Below are positions 8,693 to 49,235 of a DNA stretch of 49,235 bases, piece by piece. Every line of letters begins with the position of its first letter. Within the stretch, counting starts at the first letter, position 1. Location of the stretch: positions 1-49,235 of the forward strand of contig JADHNP010000011.1 of the NCBI GenBank assembly GCA_016779445.1. Reading direction: 5' to 3'. This DNA is from Luminiphilus sp. GTDB lineage: Bacteria; Pseudomonadota; Gammaproteobacteria; Pseudomonadales; Halieaceae. The notes under the pieces are model-generated. The model was given only the letters and a program-made list of their open reading frames with translations. It was not told where the DNA came from and did no database searches. The translations under genes were made by a program, and so were the position numbers.

Positions 8693-8790
8693 AAGTTGGG
8701 CTGCCTCTGAAACGCCATCTTGTCGAGTAATATCGCGCTATTTTCAGGGCGATACCGGGTTGTTGAGCTGTTCGTGTTTTTCTGGCTCAA

Positions 8791-8838
8791 CACCTATATA
8801 TAGGGGGTCTTGCTCTCGGAAACCCCAAGATAGGCGGG
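8791..8838 (-). promoter_or_regulatory. Probable pair of NrdR boxes at the nrdAB promoter
   Basis: Box 1 is centred on the perfect palindrome CCTATATATAGG (8793-8804), which matches the inner part of the NrdR consensus ACACWATATATWGTGT. Box 2 is CCCCAAGATAGGCGGG (8823-8838), a weaker match. The centres are 32 bases apart, three helical turns, which is the usual spacing of paired NrdR sites. Box 2 overlaps the predicted -10 element. The nrdR gene itself is not in this window. Confidence 0.55.
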
Positions 8839-8855
8839 TATGGGCCACAATGCAA
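8827..8855 (-). promoter_or_regulatory. Predicted sigma70 promoter of nrdAB
   Basis: On the minus strand TTGCAT (8855-8850) and TATCTT (8832-8827) are separated by exactly 17 bases. The -10 element lies inside the second NrdR-like box, so bound repressor would block RNA polymerase. Confidence 0.5.
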
Positions 8856-9065
8856 GCAGAGGATGCTGGGATTTTTTTGTGGGCAAACTGTGCGTAACTT
8901 TTCTTATGGGCCCTCAGTTCACGCCTAACTTATTGAGTTGCCAAGCGAAAAAAAAAGCATCCCTGTGAACGATCGAAGCTTCAATCAAAACTGCACCCCT
9001 TAAGCGAATAAGTAAATATTTTTGAAGTTCCCTGCCCCGGGGTATTTTTTCGTACTCGGCTTAAT

Positions 9066-9974
9066 TCACTGGTGAAGGAGAAACTCCATTAGCGCTTTTT
9101 GGGCATGCAGCCGATTTTCTGCTTCCTGCCAGATCACGGTATCGGGGGAGTCCATCAGATCTGCGGTGATCTCTTCATCGCGGTATGCTGGCAAGCAATG
9201 CATATATAACGCTCCGGATGCAGCCTGATCGAGGAGTTGCCGGTTGAGCTGATAGGGCCCAAGCGATGTAGCGCGCGCTTGTTGTTCAGCTTCTTGCCCC
9301 ATGGATGCCCACACATCAGTAACCAGAAGATGCGCGTCTTGGACGGCTTGCTCAGGGGCTCTCTCAATCCGGGCTTTTGGTCCACACGCCGCGAGAAGCG
9401 TGTTGTCAGGCTCGTAACCTTCAGGGCAGGAAATCACCAACTCGAAATCCAGCAAGCGCGCTGCATTCATCCAGGAATGGCAGACATTATTACCGTCTCC
9501 TAACCAGCAAACTTTTCGCCCGCTGATGTCGCCGCGTAGCTCAAAAAATGTTTGCAGGTCAGCCAGGATCTGACAAGGATGAAAATCGTCGGTGAGGCCA
9601 TTAATGACCGGCACAGTTGAATGGGTTGCAAAACGCTCAACGTCGCTATGAGCATAAGTTCGAATCATTACGGCGTCGACCATTGACGAAATGACTCGGG
9701 CCGCATCTTCGATTGGCTCCCCGCGACCCAGCTGCGTATCCTGTCCGGAAAGGAAAAGGGCTGACCCGCCTAGTTGCGTTATTCCTGCCTCAAAAGAGAC
9801 TCGGGTTCGCGTTGATGCCTTGGTGAAAATCATAGCTAATAATTTTCCGCTCAGGCTCTGGGGCTCTGTGCCCGCATACCGCAGTGCTTTAAGTTCGGTC
9901 GCTCGATCGATCAGGTCGCGCAACTCTGCAGAAGAGAGATCCATCAGCGTGAGAAAGTGTCGTTTTTCTGCCAT
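9066..9974 (-). CDS. argF: Ornithine carbamoyltransferase
   Basis: A 302-residue cytoplasmic enzyme that joins carbamoyl phosphate and ornithine to give citrulline in arginine synthesis. The carbamoyl-phosphate-binding motif STRTR is at residues 54-58. HPCQ at about residue 133 and the ornithine-side motif HCLPAYR near residue 258 are both present. Length is normal for the family. The start overlaps the argD stop by one base (TAATG), so the two genes are translationally coupled and argF follows argD in one operon. No terminator was found after the gene. Confidence 0.96.
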
Positions 9975-11167
9975 TACAGTGGTTCCTGTTCCGCGATTTC
10001 GTTGAGGACATCTGCGATCCCGGATCCCAGCTCTCCGGCCTGTTCCCGACTCATTATCAGCGGAGGCAGCACCCGGATAGTATCGCCGCCCGCAATATTG
10101 AGGAGTAAGCCCCGCTCCAAACCGCGCTTAACGATGCTGTCGGTAGATGTGCTGGGCTGAATGCCTATCATCAGCCCGCGGCCGCGAATATCAGCGATCA
10201 GGGTGGGGTCGGTAATCCGTTGCTTGAGGCTTTCGATCAGGTGATGCCGCAAAATCTCCGCTTGTGGCATTAAATTATCCTCTTTCAGCGCGGTCAGAAC
10301 TGCCACAGCCGCGGCGCAACACAGGGGATTGCCGCCATAAGTTGATCCGTGGTCGCCAGGTCCGAGTTGTTGGGCAGCAGCGCCTCTCGCCATACAAACG
10401 CCGATTGGGAGCCCATTCCCTAGTCCTTTGGCGGTTAACAGTACATCCGGTACTACCGCGAGTTGTTCGAATAAGTAGGTGCTCCCACAGCGCCCGTTGC
10501 CCGTCTGCACTTCGTCGAAGATCAGAAGCCAGTCATTTGCGGTGCACATATCCCGGAGGCTTTTCAGGTAATCGGCCGCCAGTGGTTTGATGCCCCCTTC
10601 TCCTTGAATGGGTTCGACCATGACGGCTACGACATCTGCAAGCGGTTCACCGAGTTGCTCAATCGCGGGCAGGTCGTTGGCCGGCACTCTGACAAAACCC
10701 TCAAGGAGTGGGCCAAATCCCTGACGTATCTTTTCGTTGCCGGTGGCCGACAGCGCCCCGATAGTCCTGCCATGGAATGCCCCATCGAGTACTATCATCT
10801 TAGGTTGCGCTATTCCTTTGCGATCACCATATCGTCGTGCAAGTTTAATAGCTGCTTCGTTGGCTTCTGCTCCGGAATTACAAAAGAACATATTATCCAT
10901 ACCGGTCGCTTCGCTGAGCATCTCGGCAACGCGCTCCTGCAGGCGAATGTGAAACAGGTTTGAAGTGTGAACCAGACGCGATGCCTGCTCGGTGACAGCG
11001 GCAGTAACGCCGGGGTGATTGTGCCCAAGGTTAGTGACCGCGATGCCCGAAACGCCGTCCAGATAGGCACGCCCGTCGGTATCGTAAAGTACTGCGCCTT
11101 CCCCATGAGAAAACGTCACGGGCAGGCGACCATAGGTTGGCATAATGGCGTGGTTTGAGTCAGGCAT
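9974..11167 (-). CDS. argD: Acetylornithine aminotransferase
   Basis: A 397-residue class III PLP aminotransferase that converts N-acetylglutamate semialdehyde to N-acetylornithine. It may also act on succinyl-diaminopimelate in lysine synthesis. The catalytic lysine is K247 ([10 protein letters not shown]) and the PLP-pyridine aspartate is D218 (IFDEVQTG). The phosphate-binding loop is [10 protein letters not shown] at about residues 97-106. The direct linkage to argF supports the arginine role over other class III members. The ATG at 11167 lacks a strong ribosome-binding site; the next in-frame ATG (residue 9) is no better. A sigma70-like promoter sits about 35 bases upstream. Confidence 0.94.
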
Positions 11168-38186: not shown

Positions 38187-39305
38187 GTGTCATCACCCTT
38201 TTATCCCCCTTTGCGCACCCTAATGGGCCCCGGCCCTTCTGACGTTTCCCCGAGAGTGCTGGCTGCTGCGGCCAGGCCAACGATAGGGCACCTAGATCCT
38301 TTATTTGTGCATCTTATGGACGACGTTAAGCGATTACTGCAATTCGCGTTTCAAACGACGAACGAGCTGACTATCCCCCTCTCTGCGCCTGGTTCCGCCG
38401 GCATGGAAGCGGCCTTCGTCAATCTCCTAGAGCCAGGTGATAAGGCTATTGTCTGCCAGAACGGTGTCTTTGGCGGGAGAATGAAAGAAAATGTCGAGCG
38501 CTGCGGCGGTACTGCGGTAATGGTGCAGGATAGGTGGGGTGATCCGGTCGACCCCGAGAAGGTAGCGGAGGCGATCGAGACGCATTCCGATGCCAAAGTT
38601 CTCGCCTTTGTTCATGCAGAAACCTCGACTGGTGTGCGCAGCGACGCTGAAAGGCTATGTGGCATGGCGAAATCCGCGGGTATGCTCAGTATTGTTGACG
38701 CAGTGACGTCACTGGCGGGAATCGATCTGCAGGTGGATGCCTGGGGTGCTGATGTTGTGTACTCGGGCACGCAAAAATGCCTTTCCAGTTTGCCAGGTAT
38801 CGCACCCATTACCTTTAGTGCCGATGCAGTGGAGATGATCGCCACGAGAAAGCGTAAGGTGCAGAGTTGGTTCCTGGATATGAATCTGATCATGGGCTAT
38901 TGGGGTGAAGGCGCCAAGCGTGCCTATCATCACACGGCGCCGGTAAATGCCATTTATGCGCTTCATGAAGCACTGCTGATGCTAGAGGAAGAGGGCCTTC
39001 AGGCCAGCTTTGCTCGCCACAAAGCAAATCATCTGGTTTTGACTAAGGGCCTTTCGGAGCTCGGCCTCAAACTCGCAGTCTCAGAACCGTGGCGACTGCC
39101 GCAACTCAACGCCGTCCTGATTCCTGATGGTCAGGATGACGCCGCAATTCGTAACGCCTTATTAAGGGAGTTCGATCTGGAGGTGGGCGCTGGTCTCGGG
39201 GAGTTGGCGGGTAAGCAATGGCGCATTGGGCTGATGGGTAGCAGTTGCAACACAACCAATATCAATCGATGTCTCACGGCTTTGGAGGCAGTATTGCGTC
39301 AGTGA
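38187..39305 (+). CDS. Class V aminotransferase, alanine-glyoxylate/serine-pyruvate type
   Basis: A 372-residue PLP enzyme. The N-terminus MSSPFYPPLRTLMGPGPSDV and the GHLDPLF segment are typical of alanine:glyoxylate and serine:pyruvate aminotransferases. SAPGSAGMEA near residues 66-75 binds the cofactor phosphate. The catalytic lysine is K197 in YSGTQKCLSS. It probably moves amino groups between small donors and glyoxylate or pyruvate, but members of this family are also known to act on other omega-amino compounds, so the substrate is open. The start is GTG at 38187 with an ACGGA site. It is monocistronic, downstream of the tRNA-Lys terminator, and converges with the aldolase gene. Confidence 0.88.
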   Translation: MSSPFYPPLRTLMGPGPSDVSPRVLAAAARPTIGHLDPLFVHLMDDVKRLLQFAFQTTNELTIPLSAPGSAGMEAAFVNLLEPGDKAIVCQNGVFGGRMKENVERCGGTAVMVQDRWGDPVDPEKVAEAIETHSDAKVLAFVHAETSTGVRSDAERLCGMAKSAGMLSIVDAVTSLAGIDLQVDAWGADVVYSGTQKCLSSLPGIAPITFSADAVEMIATRKRKVQSWFLDMNLIMGYWGEGAKRAYHHTAPVNAIYALHEALLMLEEEGLQASFARHKANHLVLTKGLSELGLKLAVSEPWRLPQLNAVLIPDGQDDAAIRNALLREFDLEVGAGLGELAGKQWRIGLMGSSCNTTNINRCLTALEAVLRQ

Positions 39306-39356
39306 TAGACGCGAGGGTTACGCTTGGTGGGTCGCTGTCAAAACACTGCCGCTACT

Positions 39357-40151
39357 TCAGCTGGCGTAGTCTGGCTCCTCATCATCTAGTATGGCTTTGA
39401 GTTCCGCAAAGTGTCGCTCGGCCTGTCCCGGGTAATTCTCCAACTCCACCGCTGCTTTTTCGGCAACGGTATCTGGCAATACCTTGAGCGGTAAACCGGT
39501 CCACAGCGCTTTAACATAGGTTTCCGCTGCGCGCTCGAAATAGAATAGTCGATTGAACGCATCCGCCACATTGTCACCAATGACCGTCACACCGTGGTTG
39601 CACATGATGAGCACTTTTTTCGATGCGTCCGCGAGGTGTTGGCAGCAGCGCTCGGCCTCCTCTTCGAAGGCCAGCCCACCGTAATCGCGGTCAACCGCAT
39701 AGCGATTGAAAAACATCGCACAATTCTGGTCGATTGGTGGGAGACCGGGATCTTCCAGCGTTGCGAGTATGGTGGCGTGAATAGAATGTACGTGCAGCGC
39801 CACTCTGGCGTGAGGGCACTTGCGGTGCAGTGCGCCATGTAACCCCCAAGCCGTAGGGTCTGGCGCACCCGGCCTCTCCATGGTGTCGGGGTCATTAGCA
39901 TCTACCAAAAGTAGATCGGATGCGCGGATGCGCGAAAAGTGCGATTGGTTAGGGTTCATTAAAAATTGCGTGCCATTGGCGCTCACCGAGACTGAAAAAT
40001 GATTGGCTACGCCCTCATGGAAATTAAGGCGAGCTGCCCACCGAAACGCCGCTGCGAGATCCACTCGCTCCGCCCAGTGGGCATCGCATACAGCCGCTGG
40101 TCGTGGTGAATTGCCCCGTGCGTCTTGAGTCATCTCGATTTTTTCCAACAT
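39357..40151 (-). CDS. Class II aldolase/adducin family protein
   Basis: A 264-residue protein of the AraD/FucA/adducin fold. The metal-binding His pair is in VALHVHSIHATI near residues 125-136, and a third His in MCNHGVTV near residue 190. The region WAARLNFHEGVANHFSV near residue 36-52 is typical. Enzymatic members cleave sugar phosphates or decarboxylate related compounds; many marine homologues have no assigned substrate. The start is uncertain. ATG 40151 is taken; GTG 40160 and ATG 40133 are in frame and each has only a weak ribosome-binding site. The gene lies between two transcripts of the opposite strand and is convergent with the aminotransferase. Confidence 0.82.
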   Translation of the reverse strand: MLEKIEMTQDARGNSPRPAAVCDAHWAERVDLAAAFRWAARLNFHEGVANHFSVSVSANGTQFLMNPNQSHFSRIRASDLLLVDANDPDTMERPGAPDPTAWGLHGALHRKCPHARVALHVHSIHATILATLEDPGLPPIDQNCAMFFNRYAVDRDYGGLAFEEEAERCCQHLADASKKVLIMCNHGVTVIGDNVADAFNRLFYFERAAETYVKALWTGLPLKVLPDTVAEKAAVELENYPGQAERHFAELKAILDDEEPDYAS

Positions 40152-40324
40152 CACAGTCACTTACCATAACATCGCTCTCTCGCTCGGGGGAGAGTACGGG
40201 GTTGGTGCAAGCCGTTGAGGGTGTATCCGAGACGGGAAGGGGCGGGTTACTTGGGCCGATATCGGGATTTCGCAGGCTATACTCAGTACCCTAGGCTCAG
40301 ACATTTATACAGGAGTAGAGCGGC

Positions 40325-41119
40325 ATGACACTTCCTCGCTATGGGGTGCACGACGATATTGAGGATGTTGTGACAGCCCTTACGACGACCGGGGCCGTAG
40401 TGATAGAGAACCTATTACCTGAGAAGATTGTATCTGGGCTCATCACTGACCTTCGGCCGCAGTTTGACCGGGAGGGCCACCTTTACCAAAACGGTTTTAA
40501 CGGTCATCAAACCTTGCGTGTGGGAGGTGTAACAAAATATTCGGCCTATTTTGCCGATTTCCTGCTGAATCCCACTGTGCTTGCTGTGGCAGATGCAGTG
40601 TTGAAACCTTACTGCGACGTGTATCAGGTGGGGAGTACGACCGCTATTGAAATATTGCCGGGGGAGGGTGCGCAGGTGCTTCACGCTGATGACACCTGCT
40701 ACCCGAGTCACTTATTGCCGTTTGAAGTTCAAATTTCGGCTCTATGGGCCCTGGACGATTTTACGGAGGAGAATGGCGCGACGCGGATAGTGCGAAAGGA
40801 GGCCGGTATAAAGGATTCTGCGCAGGTTTGTGAAAAGGACGTAATTCAGGCAGTGATGCCCAAGGGTTCTGTAGTGTTGTATTTAGGTTCTACGTTACAT
40901 GGCGGTGGCGAGAACCAAAGCGATGCGGCCAGAAAAGCAGTCGTCAATACCTACTGTTTGGGTTGGTTACGGCAGGAGGAGAACCAATATCTTACGTTAA
41001 CACGCGACGAAGTGGCCTCGCAGTCTGAAGCGATGAGAAGGATGCTTGGGTTTCAAGCGCACGGCCCCTACCTCGGTGTTTGGCCAGATGATCCCGATGG
41101 GCTCTGGTATGAGACGTGA
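40325..41119 (+). CDS. Phytanoyl-CoA dioxygenase (PhyH) family iron/2-oxoglutarate oxygenase
   Basis: A 264-residue protein. The iron-binding facial triad is visible: H120 and D122 in LHADDTCY, and H192 in STLHGGGENQSD. R203 (AARKAVV) is placed to bind 2-oxoglutarate. PhyH family enzymes hydroxylate acyl chains, small natural products or amino-acid derivatives such as ectoine; the substrate here is unknown. An AGGAG site lies 8 bases before the ATG. It is divergent from the aldolase gene and convergent with the class III aminotransferase (31-base gap). Confidence 0.85.
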   Translation: MTLPRYGVHDDIEDVVTALTTTGAVVIENLLPEKIVSGLITDLRPQFDREGHLYQNGFNGHQTLRVGGVTKYSAYFADFLLNPTVLAVADAVLKPYCDVYQVGSTTAIEILPGEGAQVLHADDTCYPSHLLPFEVQISALWALDDFTEENGATRIVRKEAGIKDSAQVCEKDVIQAVMPKGSVVLYLGSTLHGGGENQSDAARKAVVNTYCLGWLRQEENQYLTLTRDEVASQSEAMRRMLGFQAHGPYLGVWPDDPDGLWYET

Positions 41120-41150: not shown

Positions 41151-42557
41151 TCAGAAGCCTGCGACGCCAGTGGGATAGGCGGCGCTGTCTCCCTCGATAT
41201 CCGCGCCACTTGAAACCGACTGAATTGCCTCCTCCATAATGTGGAGGCCTGCTCGCAGGGTGTCTTCATTCATATTCAGCGCTGGATACAGGCGAATCGT
41301 ATCCTCATGGTCCGAGATAGCCCACACCCCTCGCTCAAGCATCTCGCCTCTCACAGCGCGTGCTATCCACCAGTTCTCTCCTTCGCTGCCAGTCTGGCTA
41401 GCTCTCTCAAAACTAACCCCGATCAGTAGTCCATTCCCTCTAACCTGCCTAACAATGTCGTAGCTTTCCCAGTCTCGGGTGACGTCCTCAACAATCTGAC
41501 CAAGCTTTGCCGCTTGAGCGACGATGCCATCTCTTTCGAATATCTGGAGGGTTTTTATCGCTGCGGCACACCCTGCGGGAGAACCTGCAAAGGTTGATCC
41601 AGAATTGAAGTGACCGTTATCACCGAGGATGTCATCGCGGGCGGAAATGCCCGATAGCGGTGCGATACCGCCTGACAGGTTTTTGCCATAAACCAAGATA
41701 TCTGGGGTCACGTTGTAGTGCTCTATCGCCCACATTTTTCCGGTTCTTCCCAATCCGGTGAGCACTTCGTCACTGATCAGTAGCCAGTCGTTTCGGTCGC
41801 AAATGTCCCGAACTCCTCGCACAAATGCTTGAGTTGGAATCCAGTTGCCCCCTTCTGCCAGGCCAGGTTCTAGCATTACTCCTGCAATATTGTCGCGACT
41901 CACCATTGTCTCGTGGATGTGGTGTTCCAGGTACCACAAGCAGAAATCTACATATTGATCCTGTGAGAGATTAGCCGGGATATTGTCGCTAAAGGGATAG
42001 GGAGCGCGGACCACGCCGCCTGACCAGGCTTCTAGGTAAATGCTTGAGTCGCCCCCCAGTCCGCTTAGTAATTTTCCAGCAATGGAATTGCCGTGATAGG
42101 ACGCGCCGAAGGTAACAATATACTGCCGCTGAGTATGGGTCAGCGCAAGGTGTACCGCTGCCTCCGCCGCCTCAGTGCCCGAGACTTCAAAGTTGGTCCG
42201 CGGTAGGGCCTTACTAGGCATAATTTCCGCCAACATCTCCGCCAGCTCATAGCGAAGTGGGTGATCAAAGTGAAATCCATAGCGCCGGTTAGCGGCTTCC
42301 ACCGCTTCGAGTATTTCGGGGTGGCAATTACCTAATGGGTTGGTCGCCCAGCCGTTTTGGAAATCGATATAGCGCTGATCGTCGAGATCCCATACGAAAT
42401 CCCCCTCAGCTCTGGCGACCACGATTTGACGCACTGATCTGAATCCACGGGATCCCGCCTGCTGCATGGCCTCACTGAAGCGCAACCCATTTTTAAAAAG
42501 CGGTATGCCGCGCTCAAGCGCGCGTAGTGTTTTGGGCCCGGGAAAAGGTTTGTTCAT
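41151..42557 (-). CDS. Class III aminotransferase (glutamate-1-semialdehyde-mutase-like)
   Basis: A 468-residue PLP enzyme. The phosphate-binding site is VSGTEAAEAAVHLA at about residues 125-138, D263 in ISDEVLTG binds the pyridine nitrogen, and the Schiff-base lysine is K292 in LVYGKNLSGG. Overall layout resembles glutamate-1-semialdehyde aminomutases and omega-amino-acid transaminases. An ordinary hemL would be about 427 residues and usually stands apart from oxygenase genes. Its place downstream of the permease and Rieske oxygenase suggests a catabolic transaminase acting on an omega-amino intermediate; this is inference. A gap of 115 bases separates it from the permease gene. Confidence 0.85.
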   Translation of the reverse strand: MNKPFPGPKTLRALERGIPLFKNGLRFSEAMQQAGSRGFRSVRQIVVARAEGDFVWDLDDQRYIDFQNGWATNPLGNCHPEILEAVEAANRRYGFHFDHPLRYELAEMLAEIMPSKALPRTNFEVSGTEAAEAAVHLALTHTQRQYIVTFGASYHGNSIAGKLLSGLGGDSSIYLEAWSGGVVRAPYPFSDNIPANLSQDQYVDFCLWYLEHHIHETMVSRDNIAGVMLEPGLAEGGNWIPTQAFVRGVRDICDRNDWLLISDEVLTGLGRTGKMWAIEHYNVTPDILVYGKNLSGGIAPLSGISARDDILGDNGHFNSGSTFAGSPAGCAAAIKTLQIFERDGIVAQAAKLGQIVEDVTRDWESYDIVRQVRGNGLLIGVSFERASQTGSEGENWWIARAVRGEMLERGVWAISDHEDTIRLYPALNMNEDTLRAGLHIMEEAIQSVSSGADIEGDSAAYPTGVAGF

Positions 42558-42672
42558 AATAGGTTACCTAATCAGCTAGACGAGCGCCTTGGATGCGATG
42601 AGCAAACAGTTCTCCGCAGATCTGGCGCATTCCTTTTCAGGCTGGGCTAAATATTCCCCACCAAATGCTAGC

Positions 42673-44091
42673 TTACAACGGCTGTTGTCGATTATGTGCT
42701 CGTAACCAGGGATAGAGCAGCGGTCCAGAGAGAATGGCAATCAGTCCGGCTACCCCATACCACCCGATTTCTATTCCTAAAAATCCAAAACGGTCGCGGC
42801 CCCAGAGTGTCAGGCTATGATCCCCCAGCGTGATGAATATCATGAAAGCAATCAGGGCGATCGGGGGTGTAATCAACAGGCCCATAATAATCCTGCCGCC
42901 GGGGATCTTAAAAGGGCGATGTAGGTCGGGCTCGACGACGCGCAGTCTTGCGGCAGCGATAAAGATAAGCGCATAGGAAGCCACCATCAGGAGCACGTCA
43001 ATGATGACCAGGCTCTGAAAAGGCCCGATGACCAACACGGCATTGACGCCTGCTATGAGAAGAATGGCCACAATGGGGGTGCCGAATTGCGAGCTGGTGC
43101 CGGTTAATATCGAGGGCAGTAATCCGTCTCTGGCCAGGCTTTGAATCGGTCGAGCACCTGAAGCCATATAATCGAGGTAGAGCGCGAGATTCCCGAGCAC
43201 TGCAGACGCAAGCAAGGCGTGACCAAGCGCAGTGCCGCCTAGTTGTCGTCCAATGTCCACGAAGGAAATTTTTCCGTCGCCGCTATCGACAGAAAAGAGC
43301 TCCCACTCACCGATCGCGGCAATACTGGCTGCGGTGGGGAGCAAATACATGAGTGCGACAAAAGGGAGCGCCAGCATCAGCGCTCGTGGAATGATGCGCT
43401 GTGGTTCCTCAATCTCTCCGGCTAGGGTCGACATGGATTCATAACCTGAGTACATCCACAGGCCGACACTGAGCCCCAAAATCAATGCGCCATCGGTGCC
43501 TAACAGGTCAGTTCCCGGTGGTGTGATCGGCGTGAAGGGATTGAACTGCCAGTTGGCAATACCCACTGCGGCTAAAATGACAATGGGTGAAATAATCAGA
43601 ATGGCAAACAGGCTGGATCCGATAGCCACCACTTGGATGCCCATAATATTGACGAGCGTAAAGATCCCTATCACAGACCAGCAGATCAGGTAGTACACCG
43701 AGTCACTAAAGCCAATCTGGTTTTGCAGATAGGTGGCACTCAGGACGATGTATAACGACGTGTCGACCAGGAGTGCGAGGGACCACCACCACGCAGCTTG
43801 AAACCCCCAAAATTCGCCGAGGCCTCGTCGCGTCCACACGTAGAAACCGCCACTCTCTGGGATAGCAGAGCCCAGTTCGCTGGCGATGAGTGCCATTGGC
43901 AGCGCCCAGGCAATGGGTAAAAAGAGCAATAATAGAAGCGTGAGGCCCGGTCCAGACGACGACACCATCTCCTCGATGCCAAAAGAGCCCCCTGAGACAA
44001 AGATGTAGATCATGAAAAAGGCGCTGAAGAGCGGTATACGGGTGCGCTTTGCACCCAAGTCGGGGCCATCAGTCGCGGTGTTTTGTTGCAA
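42673..44091 (-). CDS. APC-superfamily amino acid/amine permease
   Basis: A 472-residue transporter with about twelve hydrophobic segments. The first membrane segment (FFMIYIFVSGGSFGIEEMV) carries the Gly-rich unwound helix typical of APC proteins, and PESGGFYVWTRRGLGEFWGF is the conserved loop after segment 2. These carriers import amino acids, polyamines or related cations. The only suitable start is TTG at 44091, preceded by AAGGGG at good distance; the next ATG would cut into the first membrane helix. It lies about 100 bases after the Rieske gene on the same strand, which suggests it imports the substrate of that cluster. Confidence 0.88.
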   Translation of the reverse strand: MQQNTATDGPDLGAKRTRIPLFSAFFMIYIFVSGGSFGIEEMVSSSGPGLTLLLLLFLPIAWALPMALIASELGSAIPESGGFYVWTRRGLGEFWGFQAAWWWSLALLVDTSLYIVLSATYLQNQIGFSDSVYYLICWSVIGIFTLVNIMGIQVVAIGSSLFAILIISPIVILAAVGIANWQFNPFTPITPPGTDLLGTDGALILGLSVGLWMYSGYESMSTLAGEIEEPQRIIPRALMLALPFVALMYLLPTAASIAAIGEWELFSVDSGDGKISFVDIGRQLGGTALGHALLASAVLGNLALYLDYMASGARPIQSLARDGLLPSILTGTSSQFGTPIVAILLIAGVNAVLVIGPFQSLVIIDVLLMVASYALIFIAAARLRVVEPDLHRPFKIPGGRIIMGLLITPPIALIAFMIFITLGDHSLTLWGRDRFGFLGIEIGWYGVAGLIAILSGPLLYPWLRAHNRQQPL

Positions 44092-44194
44092 AGTCTGCCC
44101 CTTTTGTCATAGTAGATCGATGACAATATCGCTCTGGGCAAGCAAGCCCCTTGGCCATTACTTCACCGTGAGGGCAGTATAGTACGGGACGCCC

Positions 44195-45472
44195 TCAGCG
44201 TGGCCCTGTCTCACAATTCAAGCTGGCTTCTAACGAATGCAGGTACCAGTGCACGAACTGCTGTAATGTAAATTCGAATTCTGAATGATACGGCCCAGGC
44301 TCGAAAAACCGCGAATTCACGCCTGCTGCATTGCGCGTAATAATGTACTCGTCTTCAAGGGTTGTGTGATGCCAGAGCCAGGTCAAGTTTTCGACCTCGT
44401 AGTCTTTACCCTCTACGGCGTCTTCGCGCACGAGCCATACCAGTTCCATATCCGTCTCGGTGCGCGAGCGGGGCACAAAGCGGTATAGCACGCAGTGGTC
44501 AGGGTAGTTGAGCATGAAAGTCATAGGGCCCATTTGGAAGTCACCCGCACCGCCATCGTAGTCCCGTATATCACCCATCAGTGGTGCAACGGGCTGCCCA
44601 TCCTTGCTACCCGTCACAAACCCGTCGAATAGACCGTATCGCATTGCATGCGCGCAGGCGCCAAAACTGGGTGCATCAAGATAGATCTCGGTGTGCTCTT
44701 TTGAAATGCCGGGAATGCCCGTCACTTCGTCGGCGCGCTCGAGCATTTTAGCCACTACTGGCGCTGATTTTTCTTCCAGGTCTTTCAGGGTATGCAGACG
44801 AGCATAGGCTCTGTGTGAGGTAGCGCAGTGGTAGCACTCAAGATAATTCTCGATAGCCAACTTCCAATTCGCCTCAACGCGATAGGTCTGCCGATGCGCG
44901 ACCTTGGCGTGCTCAAGGTCATAGGCACCCAGGGGTTCACGGATATTCTCCAGCGAAGCCAGGAGGTCGCCGGCCTCGAGATCGCAGTTAATAAAGACCA
45001 AACCCATATAGGTTACGCAGTTGACCGGCTTCAGGCCATGCGAAGCACTATCAAAATCCGACATGATGTGGGTTTCGCGAGCGACTTTGAGTGAGCCATC
45101 GATGTTGTAGACCCAGCCATGATACGGGCAGACATAGGTTTTACGGTTACCGCGGGTCTCTTCGCAAACCCGGGCGCCTCGGTGGCGACAAATATTGTGC
45201 ATTGCGCGGATTTCGCCGGTTTCTGTCCGTGCGACGATGATCGAGTCTTCGCCGATCTCAATGAGCTGATAATCACCGGGAGAGGGGATCTCGCTGGTAT
45301 GAAGCGCATAAATCCAGCTTTTGAAAATCAGGTGTTCAAGCTCCTGCTCATGGACTAAATGCGAGCGATAAAAATAGGAGTCCATCGCGTGGTGGGGCCG
45401 AGCCTTCTCTGCCTCCAGCTTCTGGCGCATGCGCTGAAAAGAATCGTCTACGGAAGTCGCAATGGTCTGCAT
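44195..45472 (-). CDS. Rieske non-heme iron oxygenase, alpha subunit (quaternary-ammonium-type motif)
   Basis: A 425-residue oxygenase. The Rieske [2Fe-2S] ligands are C95-x-H97 and, 17 residues on, C115-x2-H118. The mononuclear iron site is NYLECYHCATSH, giving H215 and H220, with D374 (TLEDEYI) as the likely third ligand. The bridging residue is E212 rather than the usual Asp. Carnitine monooxygenase CntA also has Glu here, and glycine-betaine and choline monooxygenases share the ECYH pattern. Length matches GbcA. I infer oxidative demethylation or C-N cleavage of a quaternary ammonium compound. The ATG at 45472 has a GAGAG site and starts 25 bases after the GcvT-like gene; the frame extends further upstream into that gene. 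A reductase partner is not in the window. Confidence 0.88.
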   Translation of the reverse strand: MQTIATSVDDSFQRMRQKLEAEKARPHHAMDSYFYRSHLVHEQELEHLIFKSWIYALHTSEIPSPGDYQLIEIGEDSIIVARTETGEIRAMHNICRHRGARVCEETRGNRKTYVCPYHGWVYNIDGSLKVARETHIMSDFDSASHGLKPVNCVTYMGLVFINCDLEAGDLLASLENIREPLGAYDLEHAKVAHRQTYRVEANWKLAIENYLECYHCATSHRAYARLHTLKDLEEKSAPVVAKMLERADEVTGIPGISKEHTEIYLDAPSFGACAHAMRYGLFDGFVTGSKDGQPVAPLMGDIRDYDGGAGDFQMGPMTFMLNYPDHCVLYRFVPRSRTETDMELVWLVREDAVEGKDYEVENLTWLWHHTTLEDEYIITRNAAGVNSRFFEPGPYHSEFEFTLQQFVHWYLHSLEASLNCETGPR

Positions 45473-45497
45473 GGCGTCTCTCAGTAAAAGCGGTGGA

Positions 45498-46682
45498 TCA
45501 ATGAGGCGGTGCTGGTGTTTGCCAGCGCTTGGGAGATTTGAAGATGGGCGCGTCAATTACCTTGCATGGCGCGAGCAGGCGCGTCCAATGCAATTCACGC
45601 TGATAATAAATTTCCGCAACCAGTTCGTCTCCCGCGGCGCCATAGGGCATCTCGATTTGAGCGTAGGCAATGTTGGCCTTGGCTGTCGGGCACCAGGCTG
45701 CGGAGGTCACGGTGCCCACTTGTTTGTCTCCCTTGAGAATAAAGGAGTGCTCGGCAGGTTTATTTCCCTCTACATCGAGCATGGCAAAGCGATAGCGAGA
45801 TCCATTGGCTTGCTCTTTGAGCAGCGCTGAGCGGCCGTTAAAGAGTGGTTTTGAGAAATCGACCAGCCAGCTTAATCCCAGTTCGAACGGGCTGCGTGTT
45901 CGACCCACACGGACGACTTCCTCGGCGGGCATAAAATCAACATTGGCTTGTAAAAAACCCGCTTCAATGCGCGCAAGTTCAAGCGCATAGGAGCCGATCG
46001 GCTTGATGAGGTAGTCATGGCCGACCTCAAAAAGCTGATCCCAGAGCGCTTCTGCGCTTTCGGGGGGGATCCAGACTTCGTAACCCAGATCTCCAGTAAA
46101 GCCTGTTCGACTCACCATCAGGGGCTGGCCTTCAAAAGTGTAGTGCGCAATGCCGAATGGCTTCAGTTGATTTAGGTCATGGCACCCAAGCAGTGTTAGG
46201 ACCGTGCAAGAGGTGGGTCCCTGAACAGCCAGTCCCACAACCGCTTCGGATTCATTTTCAATCGTGACGTCGAAGCCTAATTTGTTCCAAGCAAGCCAGT
46301 CGTCCGCACGCTGGTAAGAGCAGATACGGTAGTCCTGCTCCCCGAGCCGAAAGATGGTGCCATCGTCCATGACTTGGCCATTGTCATCACACCAAATGGC
46401 GTACCCCACTCGATTGACACCGATCTTGCTGACATCCCGTGTGATGAGCCGGTCAAGATAGCGTTGAGCATCTGGTCCGGTGACCCGGTACTTATTCATG
46501 GGCGAGAGATCCAATACCCCGGTAGTGCTTCGCAGTGCGAAATACTCGAGTTCTACATCGAAATAGGCATTGGGGGTGGTGTATCCCATCCAGTTGCCCC
46601 AGTCGTTTAAATCGCACATCGCTTCCACTCGGGAGTGGAACGGCGTGGTGAGCAGCATAGTGTCTCGGCTGACGTCGCTCAT
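45498..46682 (-). CDS. GcvT-like aminomethyltransferase family protein (folate-dependent)
   Basis: A 394-residue stand-alone protein of the T-protein family, with the folate-binding domain first (YFALRSTTGVLDLSPMNKYRV, DAQRYLDRLITRDV) and the GcvT C-terminal barrel near residues 285-375. The conserved acidic site is VMDDGTIF near residues 105-112. Family members accept a one-carbon unit on tetrahydrofolate from glycine, dimethylglycine, sarcosine or DMSP. No glycine-cleavage genes (gcvH, gcvP) are adjacent, so this is unlikely to be ordinary GcvT. The ATG at 46682 overlaps the upstream FAD gene stop (TGATG) and has a GAGGAG site; a GTG one codon earlier is also possible. Confidence 0.87.
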   Translation of the reverse strand: MSDVSRDTMLLTTPFHSRVEAMCDLNDWGNWMGYTTPNAYFDVELEYFALRSTTGVLDLSPMNKYRVTGPDAQRYLDRLITRDVSKIGVNRVGYAIWCDDNGQVMDDGTIFRLGEQDYRICSYQRADDWLAWNKLGFDVTIENESEAVVGLAVQGPTSCTVLTLLGCHDLNQLKPFGIAHYTFEGQPLMVSRTGFTGDLGYEVWIPPESAEALWDQLFEVGHDYLIKPIGSYALELARIEAGFLQANVDFMPAEEVVRVGRTRSPFELGLSWLVDFSKPLFNGRSALLKEQANGSRYRFAMLDVEGNKPAEHSFILKGDKQVGTVTSAAWCPTAKANIAYAQIEMPYGAAGDELVAEIYYQRELHWTRLLAPCKVIDAPIFKSPKRWQTPAPPH

Positions 46683-48238
46683 CACAGGGCTCCTCTTTTT
46701 AGAATTTCCTTGGCGGCATTTCGCCCGGGTAGCCCCTGAATGCCGCCACCGGGGTGCGCTCCGGCGCCGCAGAGGTAGAGTCCATCGACTGCAGTGGCGT
46801 ACTGGGTAGATCCGGGAAATGGCCGCATCATCAAGGCTTGATCAATCGACAACTCACCGTGGTGCCAGTTGCCGCCGGTCATACCATGCGACGCCTCAAA
46901 ATCCGAAGGCACCACCAGCTCACTCGCTTTTACCAAAGCGCCGATACCGGGCGCATAGGCCTCTAGTTCTTCCAGCAATTGGTTTAGCAGTCGCGGCTTA
47001 CCGGCCTCCCAGCCGATGTCGGGCGCGAAGGGCACATAATGGACGATCGCGGTCAGCATATGTTCTCCCACGGGCGCTAAGCCGGGATCCTCAACAGTGG
47101 GTATGCTGATATCAAAGATGTGCCTACTACTAAGCTCCCGGTATTTCATCGGGTTTAGCGCTGTCTCCATGCTGTCCATAGAGGGTGTAATGACGAGTCT
47201 CTCTGAGAGCTGCGCTTCCGTCAGGCCTGTAAAGGTGGGTAGTGCACTCAGCGCGAGGTGGAGTTTGGCGGTGCCGCTTCTGGATCGGTAGTGCTCAACC
47301 CGCTTCGCCATACCGGCTTCCATCTGATGATATCCAAGCAGATCGCGGAAAGTGGTGGTGGGATCAGCACTAGAAATGACAATCTTCGCCGATACGGTCT
47401 CTCCCGAAGCAAGCGTGACACCGGTCACTCGGTCACCGGTTTTGTCGATGGCGGATACTGCCGTACCCAATTTCAGTGTGGCGCCATGTTTCTCCGCCGC
47501 GGTGGCGAGGGCCTTACCCAGAGCGCCCATGCCGCCGATCACCTGCGTAGTGCCGGTCTGCCCGAGGTGCTCTCCGGTTGCCCTATGAAGATAGCTGTAT
47601 ACCGTATTAGGTGAACGCGGACCCATGTTGGTGCCGGTAACCGCGTCTAAAGCGATAGTGCTTTTCAATGCAGCGTGAGAAAAATGCTCATTCATCACGT
47701 CATAGATGTTGATCATCACAACGCGCATCAGATCCCGAAGTCTTTCGCGACTGAGCATCTTCAGTTTGAGGCCCAACTTCATTAGCGTGAATCGATCTGT
47801 CCAGTTTTGCTCAACCAATTTGGGTGGCCGGCTGCGATAGAGGGTTGTCATCAGTTTTGCAAAGCCACGCACCATTTCTCTGAAATCGCGATACGCAGCT
47901 TGATCAACGGGATCGACTCCAGCCCCGCTGACCTGGTCCCCATCCAATATCAGGTGGTCAGCGTCAGGTTGCAGTGAAATCGTTGCCTTGGCTTTACCTA
48001 AGGACAAACCAGCGCCTTTAAGATCAAGGTCTTTGGCAATGCTCTGGTCAAACTGGGACAGCCACTGCGCGCAATCGGAGACATTGAATCCGGGGGTGAA
48101 TTCGCGATTGCTCGCGCAACCGCCGGGCTCTGTGCGGCCATCAATCACCATGACGTGCTTGCCCGCTTTGGCGAGGTAGCTTGCGCAAACTAGTCCATTG
48201 TGACCGGCGCCAATGATTACCGCATCATAATCAGTCAT
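46682..48238 (-). CDS. FAD-dependent oxidoreductase, CrtI/COG1233 type (copy 1)
   Basis: A 518-residue flavoprotein. The FAD-binding dinucleotide fold is at residues about 5-35 (AVIIGAGHNGLVCASYLAKAG, ending in an acidic residue) and is followed by EPGGCASN. The C-terminal FAD motif GLYLCGAGAHPGGGIQGLPG near residues 488-507 is typical of phytoene-desaturase-like amine oxidase relatives. Many proteins with this annotation are not carotenoid enzymes. Here it is translationally coupled to the GcvT-like gene and overlaps the second copy by eight bases, so oxidation of an N-methyl amine or a C-C desaturation is more likely than carotenoid synthesis. GGGAGGG precedes its ATG. Confidence 0.86.
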   Translation of the reverse strand: MTDYDAVIIGAGHNGLVCASYLAKAGKHVMVIDGRTEPGGCASNREFTPGFNVSDCAQWLSQFDQSIAKDLDLKGAGLSLGKAKATISLQPDADHLILDGDQVSGAGVDPVDQAAYRDFREMVRGFAKLMTTLYRSRPPKLVEQNWTDRFTLMKLGLKLKMLSRERLRDLMRVVMINIYDVMNEHFSHAALKSTIALDAVTGTNMGPRSPNTVYSYLHRATGEHLGQTGTTQVIGGMGALGKALATAAEKHGATLKLGTAVSAIDKTGDRVTGVTLASGETVSAKIVISSADPTTTFRDLLGYHQMEAGMAKRVEHYRSRSGTAKLHLALSALPTFTGLTEAQLSERLVITPSMDSMETALNPMKYRELSSRHIFDISIPTVEDPGLAPVGEHMLTAIVHYVPFAPDIGWEAGKPRLLNQLLEELEAYAPGIGALVKASELVVPSDFEASHGMTGGNWHHGELSIDQALMMRPFPGSTQYATAVDGLYLCGAGAHPGGGIQGLPGRNAAKEILKRGAL

Positions 48239-49235
48239 CGGCGTACCCTCCCGGAACGGTATTGGGTTTTTTCAAATCGGCCAGAATTTCGCGCGCTGCA
48301 TTGGCGCCCGGTGCCGCCATTACGCCGCCACCAGGGTGCGTACCAGAACTACACATATACATGCCTTTGATAGGTGACCGGTACTGCGCATACCCCGGAA
48401 ATGGTCGATTGAATAGCAGTTGGTCAAACGTCAGCTCTCCCATAAAGATGTTGCCTTCAGTTAGCCCGACCTCTGCTTCGATTTCTCTGGGCGTTCTTGT
48501 TTCGCAGTGCAAAATAAGGTCTCTAAAGTTGGGGCTGTAGTTTGAGATTTGGTCTATGACAGACTTCTCGAATCCGTCTTTATCCTCATCAGTCCACTCG
48601 CGACCCTCTACCTTTGGCGGCGCGTACTGTACGAAAACCGACATCATGTGTTTGCCTGGAGGGGCCATAGTGGGATCGGTGAGTGACGGGATCATCATGT
48701 CGAGGTAGGGATCTTTAGACCACGTTCCCGCTTTCCAGTCGTCGTATGCCCGTTCCTGACGTTCCAGCGAGTCACTGAAGTGAAGGTCGCCCGCCATTAA
48801 TCGGTTTCGCGGGTCTAGGCCGTTAAACACAGGTAAGCCGTCAAGCGCGATATTGAGCTTCCCCGAAGATCCCCTGATCTTGAAATTGCGGGCCTTTTTG
48901 AGCACATCTTTAGGCAAGTCCGCGGGGTTGGTAATATCAAGGAAGGTGCGCTTCGGATCTAAATTGGACACTACGATCGGCGCTGTGTACTCGGTACCGT
49001 CCTTCAATGCGACACCGGCCGCCTGCCCGTTTTTAACGATGATTTCATCCACATTCGCGTCACAGATAATCTCGCCACCATAAGACTGAAACGCCTTTGA
49101 CAACGAGTCGGCAATGGCACCCATCCCGCCGCGGGCGAAGCCCCAGGCACCGACATTGCCATCGACATCACCCATGTAGTGGTGGAGCAATACATAGGCG
49201 GTACCGGGCGAGTAGACACCCAGTGCAGTACCAAT
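48231..49235 (-). CDS. FAD-dependent oxidoreductase, CrtI/COG1233 type (copy 2, N-terminus off the window)
   Basis: The last 334 residues are visible; the reading frame is open to the window end, so the FAD-binding N-terminus lies beyond base 49235. The C-terminal motif GMYMCSSGTHPGGGVMAAPGANAAREI parallels copy 1, and the segment LDPKRTFLDITNPADLP resembles SSADPTTTFRDLLGY of copy 1. The copies are clearly homologous but well diverged, so the duplication is old. Its stop overlaps the start of copy 1 by eight bases, which implies coupled expression and perhaps a heteromeric enzyme. The TTG at 49190 is not the start; coding sequence continues upstream. Confidence 0.85.
   Translation of the reverse strand: MGTALGVYSPGTAYVLLHHYMGDVDGNVGAWGFARGGMGAIADSLSKAFQSYGGEIICDANVDEIIVKNGQAAGVALKDGTEYTAPIVVSNLDPKRTFLDITNPADLPKDVLKKARNFKIRGSSGKLNIALDGLPVFNGLDPRNRLMAGDLHFSDSLERQERAYDDWKAGTWSKDPYLDMMIPSLTDPTMAPPGKHMMSVFVQYAPPKVEGREWTDEDKDGFEKSVIDQISNYSPNFRDLILHCETRTPREIEAEVGLTEGNIFMGELTFDQLLFNRPFPGYAQYRSPIKGMYMCSSGTHPGGGVMAAPGANAAREILADLKKPNTVPGGYADD

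Follow-up and report, generated by a model that had tools for sequence, protein, structure and literature searches.

The window analyzed here is a whole contig of 49,235 bases (G000:C117; JADHNP010000011.1) from a 2.47-Mb draft genome of Luminiphilus sp. (G000, 86.8% complete), whose genus takes in HTCC2080. At one end of it lie six genes encoding, in order of transcription, two CrtI/CrtO-like flavoproteins (FAD1 and FAD2), a stand-alone GcvT-like protein, a Rieske oxygenase, an APC-family permease and a class III aminotransferase. We propose that they belong to an operon for aerobic catabolism whose products take N-methyl groups off a methylated and probably quaternary amine, the substrate being most likely an N-methylated diamine, polyamine or lysine-like amine, a reading to which we give a probability of about 0.6. 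The conserved core of the operon is the FAD1-FAD2-GcvT trio together with the Rieske oxygenase. Gene content, gene order, co-occurrence, motifs and the families of neighboring genes were observed, and from them we infer the reactions, the complex and the substrate.

Conservation of a four-gene core

In an order-level sample of 293 genomes, with the Rieske gene counted at E≤1e-100 and FAD1 at E≤1e-180, each was present in 16 genomes: 13 carried both, three the Rieske only, three FAD1 only and 274 neither (Fisher p=2e-17). The three FAD1-only genomes carry just a paralogue class, 59-62% identical, and counting window-type FAD1 alone (at least 71% identity, a cut set after the list was seen) gives 13, 3, 0 and 277 genomes, respectively (p=4e-20). 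Both p-values overstate the case, because relatives are not independent. In 11 of the 13 genomes having both, no more than 25 kb of a single contig separates the two genes; the exceptions are G188, an assembly of 730 contigs, and G303, where they are on different contigs. G137, a Rieske-only genome, has FAD2 and GcvT on its 7.3-kb contig (locus L160), and its FAD1 presumably lies beyond the contig end. Within the genus, 18 of the 24 other genomes have a GcvT orthologue (at least 73% identity) and the same 18 carry the Rieske; G024 (71% complete) has a partial Rieske only, and neither gene was found in five, one of them 97% complete.

For gene order, we took the best 80 named FAD1 loci (more exist), set aside 25 with less than 9.5 kb after FAD1 and, in the 55 others, counted any match to a representative at E≤1e-10, weak ones included, on either side. 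FAD2 was present in 55, GcvT in 54 and a Rieske (at least 40% identity) in 46, one of these a 120-residue fragment. FAD1, FAD2 and GcvT follow one another directly, in this order and all on the same strand, in 69 of the 71 loci long enough to show the trio; one of the two exceptions has FAD2 in two pieces, the other is without a picked GcvT frame. Rieske genes more than 50% identical, where present, share the strand of the trio (55/55).

The initial annotation had joined all six genes in one route and proposed their co-occurrence as a check. The core passed, since it recurs in order across families, and the last two genes failed. An APC permease (at least 50% identity) was found in 8/55 loci, with MFS (7/55) or putrescine-type ABC transporters elsewhere, and we rejected it as a conserved part. 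The window-type aminotransferase (at least 45% identity) was found in 7/55 loci and in five of 25 genus genomes, the window's own included, three times on another contig than the core, and it was rejected as an essential step. Because it is this rare and often lies off the core contig, transamination, which was to complete the route, is not fixed as its last step. The six genes do not form a conserved unit.

Some Rieske genes stand in other company: in G204 and G285 (loci L150 and L151) an orthologue 61-64% identical lies beside PurU and a molybdopterin oxidoreductase (called by Pfam in G204; the G285 copy is alike at its start), a grouping that is possibly a demethylation module with formate disposal.

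A CrtI-like flavoprotein pair with a separate folate protein

FAD1 and FAD2, both presumably of COG1233, are about 32% identical to each other. In a quick tree with some long FAD2 branches they form two separate clades (46 and 44 sequences; Shimodaira-Hasegawa-like approximate likelihood ratio test, SH-aLRT, 100), each holding gammaproteobacterial loci, alphaproteobacterial plasmids and paralogous trios. Both proteins keep an N-terminal GxGHN and a C-terminal HPGG signature. Of the four core proteins, FAD1 shows the highest conservation in 53 of 54 loci and FAD2 the lowest, likewise in 53 of 54, with mean identities of 84% for FAD1 (measured against the L034 copy) and 59%, 73% and 69% for FAD2, GcvT and Rieske (measured against the window proteins). 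Because FAD1 changes slowly and FAD2 fast, FAD1 may be the shared part of the enzyme and FAD2 the part adapted to the substrate.

The NCBIfam CrtO-like model gives 200 bits for FAD1, whose domain scan covered its C-terminal part, and 209 for FAD2, against a cut-off of 1000. FAD2 has Pfam Amino_oxidase over its length with CrtO and CrtI models as its best, and it lies below the curated cut-offs for carotenoid enzymes (crtI_fam 137.5 bits vs 238). It also exceeds the DAO cut-off (53.5 vs 27.9 bits), with its best DAO stretch at residues 5-45. With GcvT standing alone and no DAO-GcvT fusion, the system falls outside the dimethylglycine dehydrogenase (DMGDH) and sarcosine oxidase families. That the flavoproteins would be the novel part, as had been suggested, agrees with a CrtI-like pair unlike the usual demethylases in a core that co-occurs and keeps its order.

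The GcvT protein scores 188.5 and 37.9 bits in its two Pfam domains, above both cut-offs, and its nearest solved relative is the C-terminal part of trimethylamine N-oxide (TMAO) demethylase (9q5a, 173 bits), followed by GcvT proper. D107, D108 and E203, identical throughout 24 aligned sequences, match the Asp pair and Glu of T-protein, and we assume that the folate-binding residue is among them. From these domains and acidic residues, the protein is predicted to act as a GcvT-fold acceptor of one-carbon (C1) units.

A Rieske oxygenase of the N-demethylase type

The nearest solved relatives of the Rieske protein are 3n0q, 3vca and 4qup, with carnitine monooxygenase 6y8j matching more weakly (236 bits to 3vca, 131 to 6y8j). 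We take 3vca and 4qup, the latter labelled a demethylase, to be stachydrine demethylase Stc2. The E-x-Y-H-x4-H and CxH..CxxH motifs are present in 21/21 aligned proteins, the window's included, whose site reads E-C-Y-H-x4-H with the Glu seen in solved demethylases. The protein thus carries the motifs of the GbcA/Stc2/CntA type of N-demethylase, including the ECYH site that the initial annotation had pointed out. GbcA is its best curated model, at 291.7 bits, below the equivalog cut-off of 670.

No reductase gene lies beside the operon's Rieske. G000, G006, G017 and G004 have one PF00970 protein each (407-419 residues), that of G000 resembling NqrF by eye, and G016 has two, together with one PF14759 protein; no PF14759 protein was found in G000 (86.8% complete), G006 or G017.

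Polyamine-type neighborhoods in relatives

Around the core, the 55 loci hold a TetR regulator in 42 cases, a class III aminotransferase of non-window type in 27, a glutamine synthetase (GS)-like gene in 24, a PotF-like gene in 18, a DAO oxidase in 17, an ADP-forming acyl-CoA (CoA, coenzyme A) ligase and an acyl-CoA dehydrogenase in 15 each, a class I GATase in 13, PurU in four (one copy above the curated cut-off, the others called by 75-83% identity) and an arginine deiminase/DDAH-like gene in three. The loci vary in their upstream flank, so the numbers for genes lying there, Pot among them, are minimum values. Haliea, SAR92/Porticoccaceae and alphaproteobacterial plasmids carry the core variously with a putrescine-type ABC transporter, other class III aminotransferases, a gamma-glutamyl-amine ligase-like gene and PurU.

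The SAR92/Porticoccaceae locus L129 has a PotF/PotG/PotH-like transporter, a GS-like ligase, a DAO oxidase and a class I GATase around the core, and a class III aminotransferase cut by the locus end. Loci such as this bring together genes resembling those of the Spu/Pau/Puu polyamine pathways, mostly below equivalog cut-offs. The best solved matches of the L129 PotF-like protein are chains named polyamine transport protein, and PotF, and its ATP-binding protein passes the polyamine subfamily model. Among curated models, its GS-like ligase scores best with gamma-glutamylputrescine synthetase, at 212 bits against a cut-off of 650, GlnA reaching 210. The aminotransferase of locus L103 passes PRK07036, a model naming no substrate; its best solved match is 3i5t, an aminotransferase without a specific name, with putrescine and polyamine:pyruvate transaminases among the next. 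A GS orthologue (at least 48% identity) has one copy in five of six genomes searched, within 4 kb of FAD1 in four and about 14 kb away in G265, and was not found in the sixth, G006.

The pattern extends beyond the class. A phylum-wide draw of 398 genomes (FAD1 at E≤1e-160, with further flanks read for six of ten carriers) gave ten carriers outside it, with the trio in 10/10, a class III aminotransferase in nine, a Pot-type ABC transporter in nine and a Rieske in seven within ~30 kb. No Rieske was found in that range at the G613 and G322 loci; the second flavoprotein of G322 matches FAD1 better than FAD2, and G365 ends at a contig edge. The Rieske proteins of these carriers are mostly of another subfamily, that of L145 being 23% identical to the window's with the Glu kept. 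Five plasmid loci among the seven best records (Rhizobium, Ensifer, Shinella, Parasedimentitalea and Fuscovulum) show the same grouping.

The recurrence of Pot, GS, DAO and aminotransferase genes favors an amine that carries a further amino or cationic group, and an N-methylated diamine, polyamine or lysine-like compound is a more probable substrate than glycine betaine. The initial annotation had named glycine betaine, carnitine, stachydrine, homarine and trigonelline as candidates, and the neighborhoods of relatives point away from these toward methylated diamines, polyamines or lysine-like amines. It is perhaps an amine from algae or plants used as food: N-methylated long-chain polyamines occur in algal biosilica according to the accessible part of PMC12206195, which makes an algal source plausible, no more.

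Separately, next to the core of loci L126, L130 and L142 stand a gene of the arginine deiminase/DDAH family and a distant APC permease, which suggests a substrate variant.

Gene layout in the window

All six genes lie on the minus strand (Table 1), in the order and with the families given by the initial annotation, as the coordinates and the Pfam and NCBIfam scans confirm. FAD1 is partial because the contig end cuts the gene. FAD1 and FAD2 overlap by 8 bases; FAD2 and GcvT overlap by 4 bases with a GTG start of GcvT, or by the 1 base earlier reported if the next-codon ATG is used; a gap of 25 bases separates GcvT from the Rieske, whose longest frame opens at a TTG at 45556. The gaps on either side of the permease are 103 (Rieske) and 115 bases (aminotransferase). 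From these spacings, the first four genes are tightly coupled, as had been stated, and the last two less so.

Table 1. Genes of the proposed N-demethylation operon and its convergent neighbor, in window coordinates
Feature	Position	Strand	Domain or model
FAD1, CrtI/CrtO-like flavoprotein, C-terminal 334 of ~538 residues	48231..49235	-	Pfam Amino_oxidase; NCBIfam CrtO-like
FAD2, second CrtI/CrtO-like flavoprotein, 518 residues	46682..48238	-	NCBIfam CrtO-like
Stand-alone GcvT-like tetrahydrofolate protein, 395 residues	45498..46685	-	Pfam GCV_T + GCV_T_C
Rieske oxygenase alpha subunit, GbcA/Stc2-like, 425 residues from ATG	44195..45472	-	Pfam Rieske + Ring_hydroxyl_A
APC-family permease, candidate importer	42673..44091	-	Pfam AA_permease_2
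Class III aminotransferase, gamma-aminobutyrate (GABA)-transaminase-like	41151..42557	-	Pfam Aminotran_3
PhyH-family oxygenase, convergent neighbor	40325..41119	+	Pfam PhyH

Extension past position 49235, which the initial annotation had called for, came from a near-identical record, locus L071 of Halieaceae bacterium CPC75. There the cluster is complete: a divergent TetR gene is followed by FAD1 (8730-10346), FAD2, GcvT, Rieske, APC permease and class III aminotransferase. From FAD2 to the aminotransferase, the proteins match those of the window at 95-99% identity, and FAD1 is 98% identical to the full copy of locus L034. The operon would thus start with FAD1, and the contig end would cost the window the 5' end of FAD1 and the regulator alone. 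The L071 regulator has Pfam TetR_C_6, the BetI-type C-terminal domain, and scores 105 bits against the BetI model (cut-off 201); this divergent BetI-type repressor probably senses the amine. The nearest solved relatives of the aminotransferase are 4-aminobutyrate aminotransferases and one broad-specificity racemase.

The PhyH oxygenase, together with a class II aldolase/adducin protein and a class V aminotransferase (window 38187-41119), is kept beside the operon in the closest relatives; the three adjoin it in 12, 4 and 4 of the 55 loci, respectively. Whether PhyH is a pathway member is uncertain.

Other candidate demethylation genes in the source genome

A second, paralogous trio lies on contig C122 (locus L053, 8032-12414) in the order FAD2-FAD1-GcvT, next to a GS-like ligase, a DAO oxidase and an AraC-family regulator. 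Contig C118 (L162; G000:C118:2500-9500) has a homologue of MttB-family trimethylamine methyltransferases beside two tandem DMGDH-type DAO+GcvT proteins, one of 814 residues identified by a Pfam scan and a neighbor of ~771 residues identified by reading only. On contig C123, a 986-residue protein of SoxA size stands beside a 411-residue SoxB-like one, both named by size and sequence with no scan. The earlier statement that the usual dimethylglycine and sarcosine oxidases are absent therefore holds within the window and fails for the genome, given the proteins on C118 and C123.

Proposed pathway and alternatives

In the pathway that we propose, the APC permease would import the substrate, a role that a putrescine-type ABC or MFS transporter would fill in relatives. 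The Rieske oxygenase would then hydroxylate one N-methyl group of the quaternary (or tertiary) nitrogen, the methyl leaving as formaldehyde. FAD1, FAD2 and GcvT would act as one enzyme system, in which the flavin would oxidize a remaining N-methyl group to the iminium and GcvT would capture the C1 unit on tetrahydrofolate (THF) as methylene-THF, with PurU disposing of it where linked. The class III aminotransferase may take off the freed primary amine; in relatives, gamma-glutamylation, oxidation and hydrolysis may follow instead, the route of the Spu/Pau/Puu polyamine pathways. The middle of this scheme, oxygenative demethylation followed by flavin oxidation with C1 capture on folate, had been put forward in the initial annotation, and the comparative genomics of the four-gene core supports it.

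Several observations weigh against our reading. The trio and Rieske modules are separable: nine of the 55 loci have the trio and no Rieske in the locus (L097, L110, L113, L124, L132, L134, L136, L142 and L144, the last matching contig C7 of G033, where the Rieske lies ~16 kb from FAD1), FAD1 was not found in G204 and G285 at E≤1e-180, the two are split between contigs in G303, and no Rieske was found in the 20 kb read around the paralogous C122 trio. A search of G000, G006 and G017 for a reductase of the GbcB/CntB or BphA4 type, the types covered, gave nothing beyond one PF00970 match each. The best curated and solved relatives of the flavoproteins are carotenoid enzymes (CrtO, CrtI, phytoene dehydrogenase), and the next matches are some amine oxidases, over the nucleotide-binding end. 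The window's own operon has no Pot, GS or DAO gene; in this genome, GS and DAO genes accompany the paralogous trio of a different contig, which makes the link to polyamines one by association. Most polyamine-type proteins of L129 fall below curated equivalog cut-offs; the solved relatives of its GS are ordinary glutamine synthetases, and solved amine ligases come no closer to it than these. The regulator, being of the BetI type, suggests that the ligand is a quaternary ammonium compound, which would also suit a betaine.

As an observation in its own right, the NORP44 metagenome-assembled genome has three FAD1-FAD2-GcvT copies (L109, L110 and L113), with no Rieske gene seen in those loci.

We tentatively carry the proposal one step further: the trio could represent a new class of THF-coupled N-demethylases for amines, formed around two CrtI-like flavoproteins and corresponding in bacteria to human PYROXD2. 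With the Rieske it would strip algal or plant quaternary and N-methylated polyamines or lysine derivatives, and its flavins may feed electrons to the Rieske, for which several of these genomes show no obvious reductase.

It is possible, if rather doubtful, that the substrate is of the proline-betaine, carnitine, gamma-butyrobetaine, beta-alanine-betaine or trimethyllysine type, handled by N-demethylation, transamination and, where an acyl-CoA ligase and acyl-CoA dehydrogenase are present, CoA-linked beta-oxidation. The closeness of the Rieske to 3vca and 4qup, the GABA-transaminase-like aminotransferase and the APC permease of the window are consistent with this, as are the two acyl-CoA genes counted above and a CoA-acylating methylmalonate-semialdehyde dehydrogenase in a few loci. 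However, the APC family does not fix a substrate, and the Pot/Spu-type transporters and gamma-glutamyl-amine-type genes of many relatives fit an amine better.

Glycine betaine itself we consider unlikely. The Rieske would then be GbcA, and the trio would replace DMGDH and sarcosine oxidase in turning dimethylglycine and sarcosine into glycine; GbcA as best curated model and the BetI-like regulator with its TetR_C_6 domain speak for this. Yet the Rieske score is far under the GbcA cut-off, with 3n0q, 3vca and 4qup nearest among solved structures, and the recurrent identified neighbors are Pot, GS, DAO and class III aminotransferase genes (many neighboring open reading frames are without annotation). 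The MttB-family and DMGDH-type genes and the SoxA-size protein elsewhere in the genome also make glycine betaine a less likely substrate, an MttB-family glycine betaine route in marine bacteria being described in the accessible part of PMC12478193.

A much less probable alternative is that the trio oxidizes di- or monomethylamine freed elsewhere, for example from dimethylarginine by DDAH-like hydrolases: the arginine deiminase/DDAH-family gene beside the operon occurs in only 3/55 loci, and the Rieske, the polyamine-type transporters and the aminotransferases would be left without explanation. Least probable of all, the flavoproteins would be carotenoid or other isoprenoid enzymes, as their best matches might suggest, and their place beside GcvT and Rieske would mean something else; the curated matches are far under cut-off, the trio keeps its order, and no carotenoid gene is among the annotated neighbors.

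PYROXD2 and wider significance

We take human PYROXD2 to belong to the same COG1233-type flavoprotein group as FAD1 and FAD2; a FAD1 profile run against the PDB matched three sequences at E≤1e-10, none of them PYROXD2, and no collection with the human protein was searched. According to the accessible part of PMC8109053, PYROXD2 variants associate with N6-methyl-, dimethyl- and trimethyllysine and with N-methylpipecolate, and one missense variant explains about half of the N6-methyllysine variance in human blood; the accessible part of PMC3169529 links variants to urinary trimethylamine and plasma dimethylamine. If the homology holds, these associations and the operon both point to N-methyl amines, and the trio might offer a bacterial model for PYROXD2.

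To our knowledge, the aerobic demethylases known for methylated amines form a short list. According to the abstract of PMC13390433, methylated amines make up an important share of the dissolved organic nitrogen in the sea. With a conserved alternative present in OM60/NOR5, in SAR92 and on some alphaproteobacterial plasmids, the list would gain a class of enzymes and probably also one of substrates. In the openly licensed PMC literature we found, among the papers listed, none on this gene combination or on Rieske-based catabolism of N-methylated polyamines, which is weak evidence of novelty; for homarine catabolism with a Rieske, the same literature gave glycine betaine work in Vibrio natriegens only.

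Comparison with known systems

The glycine betaine pathway runs from GbcAB through DMGDH/DgcAB to SoxBDAG. The operon resembles it in placing a Rieske first, in FAD and GcvT-fold folate chemistry for the remaining methyl groups and in PurU-type C1 disposal, and differs from it in its CrtI-like flavoprotein pair, its separate GcvT, the amine/polyamine-type neighbors of its relatives and the lack of GbcB alongside. Stc2 and CntA, which open quaternary amines, share the Rieske oxygenase with a Glu in the ECYH site (3vca, 4qup and 6y8j); they are set apart by the modest scores given above and by a different operon.

The Pseudomonas SpuABC-SpuDEFGH/Pau and E. coli Puu loci have counterparts of their transporter, GS-like ligase, DAO oxidase, GATase and class III aminotransferase in the SAR92/Porticoccaceae loci, whereas those pathways are without an N-demethylation module. 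The TMAO demethylase Tdm (9q5a), whose C-terminal GcvT-like part is nearest to the window GcvT among solved structures, is one fused 793-residue protein that presumably works without flavin, whereas here GcvT has a flavoprotein pair as partner.

Dimethylglycine oxidase and dehydrogenase, gamma-N-methylaminobutyrate oxidase and heterotetrameric sarcosine oxidase oxidize an N-methyl group with FAD while a GcvT fold takes up the C1 unit on THF, the same coupling that we propose for the trio. In these enzymes, a DAO-kind flavoprotein is fused to or complexed with GcvT, whereas the operon has two CrtI-like proteins and a stand-alone GcvT. By its sequences, then, the core appears to follow the logic of Rieske-plus-folate N-demethylation pathways and to depart from the DMGDH/SOX kind in its flavoproteins.

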